From contig NZ_CP019285.1 of the NCBI RefSeq assembly GCF_000226975.2, positions 1,736,001 through 1,800,000 of the forward strand: 64,000 nt of DNA, read 5' to 3'. Below the pieces are notes generated by a model that was not told the origin of the DNA, searched no databases, and was given only the letters and a program-made list of their open reading frames with translations. The position numbers and the translations under genes are program-made. Numbering within the stretch: the first letter of the stretch is position 1; each line of letters begins with the position of its first letter. This DNA is from Halobiforma lacisalsi AJ5 (GTDB taxonomy: Archaea; Halobacteriota; Halobacteria; Halobacteriales; Natrialbaceae). Below are positions 9,301 through 12,873 of the stretch, piece by piece.

Positions 9301-10938
9301 ATGAACATAGCTAGTGTCGTCCCGAACAGGGTCCGACGACGGTACAGCGCGAAAATCGCCGCGGCACTCGGCTGTGTCGTCGTCGTGACGCTTGCCTTTG
9401 GTCTGCTCTTTGGAACGTACATTCACGCGGGGCCGGAGGCCGAGGCTGCCGATCGGGCGACTGCCGCGGTGACCGGGCTTCTGGTCGTCTTCTTCATGAA
9501 CCTCGGCCTGTTCGGGATCGTCATCGGGGGCAACACCGCACTCGCCCTCGATCGACTCGGCGGTCGGGCCGAGCGGATCGGGGACGGCGAGTTCGACGTC
9601 GACCTCGAGACCGGCCGGATCGACGAAGTGGGGCAACTCTACGACTCCGTCGCGGACATGCGGGATTCCCTCGAGGAGTCGCTCGAGGAACTCGAGGTCG
9701 AACAGGAACGCGCCCAGGAGGCCCAGCGGGAGGCCGAACGCCGTGCCGACGAACTCGAGGAGGAACGACAGCGCGTCCAGGAGGCCCGCCGCGAGGTCGA
9801 GCACAAGAACGAACGGCTCGTCGCGGAGGCCGAACGGTTCTCCGAGGTGATGGACGCCTGTGCCGACGGCGAACTCGACCGCCGACTCGAGCCGGAGATC
9901 GAGGACGAAGCGCTCGAGGCGATCGCGGACTCGTTCAACGAGATGCTCGACCGGATCGGCGACCTCGTCGCCGAAGTCCAGACCTCGGCCGAGACCGTCG
10001 AGGACGTCGCGACCGACCTCCAGACCTCGAGCGAGCAGATCCGGACCGCGAGCCAGGACGTCGCGGAGTCGGTCCAGGGGATCGCCGACGGCGCGGCCGA
10101 ACAGACCGACGACCTCGACGCGGCGGCAAGCGAGGTCAGTGACCTCTCGGCGGCGACCGAGGAGGTTGCGGCGACGACCTCCGAGATCGCCGAGCAGTCC
10201 GAGGAGGTCGCCACCCTGGCCGACGAGGGGCAGGCGATGGCCTCCGAGGCAGCGCACAACATCGGCTCGCTGGTCGATACTACCGAGACCGTCGCGCAGA
10301 CGGCCGAGCAACTCGAGCGCGAGACCGAACAGATCGGCGAGATCATCGCCCTGATCGACGATATCGCGGACCAGACGAACTTGCTGGCACTGAACGCCTC
10401 GATCGAGGCTGCGACGGCGAACGCCGACGGTGACGGGTTCAGCGTCGTCGCCAACGAGATCAAGTCCCTCGCGGAGGAGACGATGGACGCCGTCGACGAC
10501 ATCGAGGCGACCCTCGAGTCGATCCGCGAGCGGACAGCGACGACGGCCGACGAGATCGCGACCGTCGACGAAGAGATGAAAACCACGGCGACGCTGGTCG
10601 ACGACCTCGAGTCCAAACAGGAGACGATCGCCGACGGGATCGGTCAGGTCGACGGCAGTATCCAGGAGATCGCCTCGACAGCCGACGATCAGGCGACCGC
10701 CGCCGAAGAACTGGCGACGATCGTCGACACCGTTGCCGACGTCTCGATGGAGACGAGCGACGAGGCCGAAGGGGCCGCCGCCGCAGCCGAGGAGACGACC
10801 GCGACGATCGACGAAGTGTCGACGACCGCGACGGACCTCGAGGACGATGCCCGGGAACTCCGTGAACTGATCGGTTCGTTCACCATCGGCGGCAGCCGAT
10901 CCGGCGCGCGAACGGCCGCCCCGTCGGGGGGTGATTGA
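9301..10938 (+). CDS. methyl-accepting, rhodopsin-transducer-like chemotaxis protein
   Basis: 545 residues. Two transmembrane helices (about 17-41 and 55-84) are separated by only about 15 residues. A HAMP linker follows (about 82-135), then a long coiled coil, a second HAMP-like stretch (about 180-235) and the signalling hairpin (IADQTNLLALNASIEA near residues 355-370, then GFSVVANEIKSLAEETMDA). The short extracytoplasmic loop has no room for a ligand domain, the layout of sensory-rhodopsin transducers of the Htr type. The stop overlaps or abuts the opsin-like gene, as in htr-sop pairs. It probably signals to CheA/CheW encoded elsewhere. Confidence 0.9.
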   Translation: MNIASVVPNRVRRRYSAKIAAALGCVVVVTLAFGLLFGTYIHAGPEAEAADRATAAVTGLLVVFFMNLGLFGIVIGGNTALALDRLGGRAERIGDGEFDVDLETGRIDEVGQLYDSVADMRDSLEESLEELEVEQERAQEAQREAERRADELEEERQRVQEARREVEHKNERLVAEAERFSEVMDACADGELDRRLEPEIEDEALEAIADSFNEMLDRIGDLVAEVQTSAETVEDVATDLQTSSEQIRTASQDVAESVQGIADGAAEQTDDLDAAASEVSDLSAATEEVAATTSEIAEQSEEVATLADEGQAMASEAAHNIGSLVDTTETVAQTAEQLERETEQIGEIIALIDDIADQTNLLALNASIEAATANADGDGFSVVANEIKSLAEETMDAVDDIEATLESIRERTATTADEIATVDEEMKTTATLVDDLESKQETIADGIGQVDGSIQEIASTADDQATAAEELATIVDTVADVSMETSDEAEGAAAAAEETTATIDEVSTTATDLEDDARELRELIGSFTIGGSRSGARTAAPSGGD

Positions 10939-10940
10939 GC

Positions 10941-11684
10941 GTGTTCGAAGCAATCCAGACGCTGGTCGTCGGAACGTCGGTCCTCGCGCTCGCAGCGGTC
11001 GCCTTTTTGTTCGCCGCGCGGCGGCTGCCCGCCGCCGGTCGTTCGTATGGCTATGCTGCCGCCGTCGCAGCCGGAGCGATGGCGGCCACGTACGTCGCGA
11101 TGACGGCCACCGAATCGATGGCAGCCGGCGCCGGGACCGACTTCGCCAGGTTCGTCGGCTACACGGTCATCTGGTCGGTGATCTGTACCGTCGTGGCGGG
11201 TGTCGCTGGCGTCGGTCGGCGTCTCGCAGCCGCGCTGCTGGCGGTCGTCGTCGTGCGCCTCTGGATCACTTACGGAAGCTGGCAGGTCGAGGGGACGGTC
11301 GGTTCGGCGCTAGCGATCGTCCCGTTCGCGCTCCTCCTCGTCGCTATCTACCTGCTGTTCGGCCCGTTCATGCGAGCGGTCTCATCGACCAGCGGGGAGC
11401 GACAGTTGCTGTACGCGAAACTCCGAAACTTGGTCGTGCTGGGCTGGCTGGCGCTCGTCGTGACTGGCCTCCTCGGCGAGGCGTTCGGACTCACGACGGA
11501 TTTCGTCGCCATAGTCGCTTCGACGTACATCGAGGCTGTACTGCTCGTCGGCTTCGGCGGCATCGTCGTCCGGAGCGGCCGCGCCCTCGCAGCGACCGCC
11601 GCGTCCGGCGACCTGAACCCGTTTATGAGGGACGGAACCGCTTCCGGCGAGGGGCTCGAGGATCGCGCCGGATCGCCGTCCTGA
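10941..11684 (+). CDS. opsin-fold (microbial rhodopsin family) protein lacking the retinal lysine
   Basis: About 247 residues and seven hydrophobic helices. I chose GTG 10941, 2 bp after the transducer stop; TTG 10935 is also in frame. Numbering here uses the TTG start. Helix C has ARFVGYT (Arg72 at bacteriorhodopsin Arg82), helix F has LRNLVVLGWLAL (Trp171 at Trp182). Helix G reads STYIEAVLLVGFGGIVVRS. Glu200 falls at Asp212, but the Schiff-base Lys216 position is Leu204; Asp85 is Gly and Pro186 is Val. It therefore should not bind retinal covalently. Coupling to a two-TM transducer suggests a membrane sensor using another ligand or stimulus. The loss is seen directly; the role is inference. 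Confidence 0.82.
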   Translation: MFEAIQTLVVGTSVLALAAVAFLFAARRLPAAGRSYGYAAAVAAGAMAATYVAMTATESMAAGAGTDFARFVGYTVIWSVICTVVAGVAGVGRRLAAALLAVVVVRLWITYGSWQVEGTVGSALAIVPFALLLVAIYLLFGPFMRAVSSTSGERQLLYAKLRNLVVLGWLALVVTGLLGEAFGLTTDFVAIVASTYIEAVLLVGFGGIVVRSGRALAATAASGDLNPFMRDGTASGEGLEDRAGSPS

Positions 11685-12240: not shown

Positions 12241-12873
12241 TCACTCGCCGGTCGACTGACAGTCGCACCCGCCCTGGTCGAGCAGGTCCCTGATCGTGTA
12301 CTGGGTCTTGCAATCTTCACAGGTGATCGTGACGTTGACGAGGACGTTGAACTCGCCGACCTCGAGCACGCCGCTGCGCTCGAGCTGTTCGACCGTGTCC
12401 TCGGTGACCGCGGCGGTTCGGTTCCGCAGTGCCCCGAGTTTGTCCCTGCTTCGCTCGAGCCGTTCCTCGTCGCTCGGACTCTCGAGCGACGCCTCGAGGC
12501 AGTCCGTCAGGTGGTTGTAGACCGTCTGGTGGGAGACGAAGTCGCTCTCGACGTCCTCCACGGGGACGGCATCGCGCTCGAGTTCCTTGCGGGTCTGGAC
12601 TCGAGTCCCGCTGCTGACCTCGTCGTCCGTCAGCAGCCGGTACGTGTTCTCCACTTCGCCGTCCTTGTAGCCCAGTCCGGCATCGTCGAGCGCGGCGGCG
12701 AGCACCCGCTTGTTCACGTGTTCCGCGAGGTCGCGGGTGCTGTATCGCTCGTCGGTCTCGTCGGTCCAGCGGCGAACGAGGTCGGCGTCGAGGTCGGCGA
12801 GCCCGTACCGGTCTGCGACGCGCCCGACCTTGCATCCGCACGTCTCGCTCGACCCCTCGTCGGATTGGCTCAC
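12241..12873 (-). CDS. rdfA: rod-determining factor RdfA-like protein
   Basis: 210 residues. The N terminus ETCGCKVGRVADRYGL and the layout are those of haloarchaeal RdfA-type proteins: a helix-turn-helix-like RDLAEHVNKRVLAAALDDAGL, a central domain with VYNHLTDCLEASLE, a coiled region and a C-terminal CEDC...CDC metal-ribbon. The family is linked to rod-shape development in Haloferax; several paralogs per genome are usual, so this copy may have another regulatory role. The C-terminal cysteines suggest zinc binding. It has its own TATA box. Confidence 0.75.
   Translation of the reverse strand: MSQSDEGSSETCGCKVGRVADRYGLADLDADLVRRWTDETDERYSTRDLAEHVNKRVLAAALDDAGLGYKDGEVENTYRLLTDDEVSSGTRVQTRKELERDAVPVEDVESDFVSHQTVYNHLTDCLEASLESPSDEERLERSRDKLGALRNRTAAVTEDTVEQLERSGVLEVGEFNVLVNVTITCEDCKTQYTIRDLLDQGGCDCQSTGE

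Follow-up and report, generated by a model that had tools for sequence, protein, structure and literature searches.

A lysine-less opsin-related protein encoded with an HtrII-like transducer in Halobiforma lacisalsi AJ5, a probable retinal-free receptor pair

What might a protein of the sensory rhodopsin family be sensing if the lysine that binds retinal is missing, while its gene directly follows that of an HtrII-like transducer? The question is raised by a gene pair in the window analysed here, a stretch of 64,000 nucleotides (C1:1736001-1800000) of the 4.38-Mb genome of the haloarchaeon Halobiforma lacisalsi AJ5 (NZ_CP019285.1). The features to which we refer are listed below. Residue numbers of the target protein count from the TTG at 10935; R108, E201, D69 and Y199, when used as labels for the clade, follow the numbering of sensory rhodopsin II of Natronomonas pharaonis (NpSRII), and of these, Y199 and E201 correspond to Y198 and E200 of the target.

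9301..10938 (+): HtrII-like transducer, P0001, 545 aa, with two TM helices, a short external loop, a HAMP region and an MCP signalling domain
9499..9501 (+): codon of Asn67 (TM2 of the transducer); in its motif FMNLGL the residue lines up with N74, the Asn of INLGL in NpHtrII
10941..11684 (+): opsin-related protein (ORP, group B), 247 aa from GTG 10941, 249 aa from TTG 10935
11139..11141 (+): codon of Asp69, a residue present in every sub-branch member
11148..11150 (+): Arg72 codon, helix C (NpSRII R72, BR R82)
11157..11159 (+): Gly75 codon, primary counterion place (NpSRII D75, BR D85)
11256..11258 (+): Arg108 codon, helix D, ring end of the retinal pocket (NpSRII V108, BR M118), invariant in the sub-branch
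11418..11420 (+): Lys162 codon, sole lysine, cytoplasmic start of helix F (NpSRII R162)
11526..11528 (+): Tyr198 codon (NpSRII Y199, transducer contact)
11532..11534 (+): Glu200 codon (NpSRII D201, BR D212), Glu invariant in the sub-branch
11544..11546 (+): Leu204 codon, Schiff-base lysine place (NpSRII K205, BR K216)

The transducer carries MCP (PF00015, E=1.3e-35) and HAMP (PF00672, E=3.4e-10) domains in Pfam, and its residues 6-147, both membrane helices included, align with NpHtrII, the transducer of SRII in N. pharaonis (PDB 2f95_B, E=8e-26), HtrII being the closest solved relative of the membrane part in the PDB. The external loop between the helices is shorter than that of NpHtrII, and neither the domain search nor the NpHtrII alignment revealed an external sensing domain. 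With two TM helices, a short external loop, HAMP, an MCP tip and an Asn in TM2, P0001 is of the HtrII type, and the opsin-related gene is encoded with such a transducer, as is the case for sensory rhodopsin II. The opsin ORF spans 10935-11684 (+); GTG 10941, 2 bp past the transducer TGA, is the likely start since a homolog from the same genus (L059) begins at the aligned Val, and TTG 10935 is the alternative. A first, sequence-only reading of this DNA had described an htr-sop-like pair in which a two-TM, short-loop transducer is followed within 2 bp by the opsin, and both points stand, the former through the alignment with NpHtrII and the latter with GTG 10941 as the likely start. The order transducer then ORP is kept in 12 genomes, the target counted; this and the conservation of the ORP gene in other genera speak clearly against a chance finding. 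As part of the non-retinal receptor–transducer reading set out below, the two genes probably make up a two-gene receptor operon.

The seven-helix protein matches PF01036 (Bac_rhodopsin) at E=9e-6 and 25.7 bits, narrowly over the 24.6-bit cut-off, its best PDB match by phmmer is NpSRII (E=6e-6), and the profile of its sub-branch aligns to a canonical haloarchaeal opsin profile with a probability of 98.7%, helix G being free of gaps. An AlphaFold2 model built from three sequences was weak (mean pLDDT 57.5, pTM 0.51), too weak for the placement of side chains, and the Foldseek ranking obtained with it, topped by SRII at TM-scores of ~0.5, carries little weight. In the phmmer, MAFFT and profile-profile alignments alike, Leu204 takes the position of the retinal lysine and E200 that of D201/D212, and MAFFT places R72 on R72 of NpSRII and R82 of BR. 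The helix-C Arg, the carboxylate at the Asp212 place (a Glu) and the Leu in place of the Schiff-base Lys, all proposed earlier, are thereby confirmed, and the retinal-binding lysine of helix G that belongs to a sensory rhodopsin II is absent. That proposal also depended on there being no different lysine in the binding pocket, and one is excluded by the sequence: K162, at the cytoplasmic E-F end where helix F starts, is the only lysine among 249 residues and lies outside the pocket, so that an alternative pocket lysine was rejected and no retinal Schiff base is possible there. Relative to NpSRII, D75 is replaced by Gly, W76 by Tyr, Y174 by Leu, P175 by Val and W178 by Gly, the pocket residue F127 is likewise replaced, and W171 and Y51 are retained. 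With no lysine for the Schiff base, no primary counterion and most pocket aromatics missing, sensing by retinal of the usual kind is not possible.

The implied novelty of a transducer-coupled lysine-less archaeal opsin did not survive, this being a kind known since 2016 and no new class. Becker et al. 2016 (PMC4915679) named 48 lysine-less haloarchaeal opsins 'opsin-related proteins' (ORPs), just under 30% of the haloarchaeal opsins then counted, and distinguished a group A with Arg at the lysine site from a group B in which the residue there is hydrophobic, Leu among others. The same paper reports HAMP/MCP transducer linkage for 17 of 32 group B ORPs, finds for two purified ORPs, relatives of the target, no bound retinal and no absorbance across 480-580 nm, and proposes for ORPs the role of a receptor that acts with a transducer on another ligand or stimulus. 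No functional study of ORPs after 2016 was found among the citing papers, as judged by title and the beginning of the abstract in a coverage that leaves out most subscription journals. The target shows the group B features: its K216/K205 site is hydrophobic (Leu204), Y51, R72 and Y199 are kept, and W178 and Y174 have become Gly and Leu. Asp189, highly conserved in ORPs, is Thr in the target and in two sub-branch relatives, and Asp in 18 of the 21 members.

It could be that the protein is a photoreceptor still, with retinal or another chromophore held non-covalently, given that two Brp/Blh-type retinal genes and canonical opsins occur in the same genome, so that retinal should be present, and that W171 and Y51 have been retained. 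However, with K205, D75, W76, Y174, P175, W178 and F127 all replaced, an Arg at the ring end, and no absorbance at 480-580 nm in the two purified ORPs, neither of which is the target, we regard this as very unlikely.

A search of 125 genomes of the target's family gave a match at 1e-8 in 56, some of them to canonical SRII only; 80 loci were retrieved for a tree, and a second tree included 20 further loci. These were quick trees with SH-aLRT support only, and the lysine column was left out of the alignment. The lysine-less haloarchaeal opsins, the target included, form one clade apart from the canonical ones (100% SH-aLRT), and a single loss of Lys suffices on the tree, with the 20 added loci as without them. 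The target's sub-branch has 21 members (100% SH-aLRT), across which D69, R72, W80, R108, T112, L174, G178, Y199 and E201 are invariant. R108 and E201 together are found in all 21 and in no other sequence examined, a distant protein outside the sub-branch having E201 but Gln108. Because the clade may have a single origin, the combination counts as one shared innovation and not as repeated covariation. Apart from that distant protein, no sub-branch member from outside the target's family was seen among the hits examined in a class-wide sample, and no relatives were found in a plasmid collection.

Other lysine-less groups were also observed. A 23-member clade (L099-L121, genera g10, g16 and g23) has Arg at the lysine site, keeps D/E75, D201 and Y174, always lies directly behind a large transducer (757-886 aa) with a long region before HAMP, and is the deepest branch among the lysine-less proteins; it falls outside groups A and B as these are worded in the 2016 paper (PMC4915679). 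His occupies the place of the retinal lysine in four opsin relatives (L098, L159, L162 and L171).

Is the target a functional gene? With its lysine gone and little of the retinal pocket left, it might be a decayed, functionless copy of SRII, but the frame is intact, and pairwise dN/dS within the sub-branch is about 0.15-0.50, well below 1, against 0.21 for a bacteriorhodopsin pair. Together with conservation in other genera this shows a functional gene under purifying selection, and the well-supported clade has invariant residues of its own; a pseudogene was rejected on these grounds, and decay seems extremely improbable. At another locus (L018) the genome also has a canonical pair of SRII and transducer, which argues in the same direction and implies that the ORP is an additional receptor and no replacement of SRII. 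In a separate locus of the genome (L016, 5810-6553 and 7710-8453 (-)), two bacteriorhodopsin-type genes lie 1.9 kb apart, their proteins identical over the aligned part.

The coupling of the two proteins can be followed on both sides of the expected interface. In SRII, Y199 contacts HtrII, where its partner is the Asn of the INLGL motif, N74 in the usual numbering. This Tyr does not vary in any of the lysine-less groups examined, and the TM2 Asn is kept in 11 of the 12 partner transducers of the sub-branch. These partners are encoded directly upstream in 12 of the 21 members; for the other 9, no transducer gene was detected within the ~6 kb fetched per side. A second group B ORP in the window, P0003 (53545-54306 (-), 39% identical to the target), has no transducer gene nearby either, and a third ORP of the genome (C1:2703286-2704011) lies ~0.95 kb from a large MCP gene. 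The members without a nearby transducer gene, and P0003 with them, count against the receptor reading, so that the receptor may also work another way. Across the sub-branch, no conserved neighbours hinting at a ligand were found, only rdfA recurring, near five pairs. In the window, the gene for RdfA (rod-determining factor A, PF21811, E=7e-77) adjoins the pair at 12241-12873 (-); homologs lie within ~6 kb of four related pairs (L059, L060, L062 and L063) in two different arrangements, and a second rdfA copy exists elsewhere in the genome.

We consider it probable that the ORP and the transducer form a retinal-free receptor that drives the transducer as SRII does and whose remodelled pocket responds to a different stimulus, a judgement that concerns the non-retinal receptor–transducer reading and leaves the ligand class aside. 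The sequence-only reading had likewise suggested a rhodopsin-derived, transducer-coupled receptor for another ligand or stimulus, which is supported by the lysine loss, the gene pairing and the conserved contacts. The ORP would sit beside the two membrane helices of the HtrII-like transducer, like SRII with HtrII; a conformational change of its helices F and G would be passed to the transducer, from which the signal would travel by way of HAMP and the MCP tip to reach CheA and, in the end, the archaellum. CheA-type and archaellin-family genes are present in the same genome. Since an external sensing domain is absent from the transducer, the ORP is most likely the place where the stimulus acts. 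Against the reading stands that Y174 and T204, the steric-trigger pair of SRII, are lost in the ORP, from which it follows that the switch inside the ORP must differ.

What the stimulus might be is best approached through the charges of the pocket. The buried charges of canonical sensory opsins are R72, D75, the Schiff base and D201; only R72 and D201 are left in most group B proteins, and in the target's clade R108 has been gained, D201 has become the longer Glu, and D69 lies one turn from R72. Two readings fit, an anionic ligand on R108 or a network of D69-R72 and E201-R108 that switches without a ligand. In the preferred though unproven version, a small amphipathic, probably anionic molecule would enter the former retinal cavity, disturb the R108/E201 network and shift helices F and G. 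The Arg/Glu-lined cavity would then be a site for anionic amphiphiles and the SRII-HtrII contact would be used for chemotaxis, a GPCR-like chemoreceptor on the rhodopsin fold, a specific proposal that we put forward tentatively and hold to be rather doubtful. The charge-balance argument for an anionic ligand is weakened because D69 is specific to the sub-branch too, and R108, E201 and D69 could be plain internal salt bridges.

Another possibility is that a property of the membrane (potential, tension or pH) is what the 7TM protein detects, through its buried charges, or that the protein is a mere assembly partner of the transducer, no ligand being involved. R72, R108, E201 and D69 can indeed be written as two internal salt bridges of zero net charge, and a transducer devoid of a sensor domain would be compatible with this. 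Such roles have, however, no obvious need for an emptied aromatic pocket with clade-specific residues, and it is in the former retinal pocket that the ORP groups differ most from each other; neither point is decisive, and we judge this alternative unlikely. For the retinal-free receptor that we favour, the charged pair fixed throughout the clade at the former retinal site and the sensor-less transducer offer a concrete protein, and concrete residues, for light-free sensing by a rhodopsin fold.

Among known systems, the SRII-HtrII pair of N. pharaonis shares with the target pair the gene order, the two-TM, short-loop transducer, the Y199/TM2 Asn contact pair and the helix-C Arg, whereas the target has no Schiff-base lysine, D75, Y174/T204 trigger pair or ring-side aromatics and cannot bind retinal covalently. 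As a sensory-opsin-related homolog with a hydrophobic lysine site and a frequent HAMP/MCP neighbour, the target agrees with ORP group B, from which its sub-branch stands out by Arg108, Glu201 and Asp69, and the target itself by Thr instead of Asp at 189. Becker et al. 2016 (PMC4915679) do not appear to set this sub-branch apart, and attribute fungal and other lysine-less opsins to independent losses of the lysine. New here are the delimitation of the sub-branch by R108, E201 and D69, the examination of the interface from the transducer side, and a hypothesis on the pocket that can be tested. A structural precedent for the putative anionic ligand on R108 is retinal-free proteoopsin, a microbial-opsin fold with an anionic amphiphile, decanoate, in the retinal pocket (PDB 8cnk; PMC11322631). 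There, the decanoate carboxylate pairs with the retinal lysine, and the molecule is interpreted as standing in for retinal (PMC11322631), whereas the pocket of the target has no lysine and carries an Arg at its ring end.
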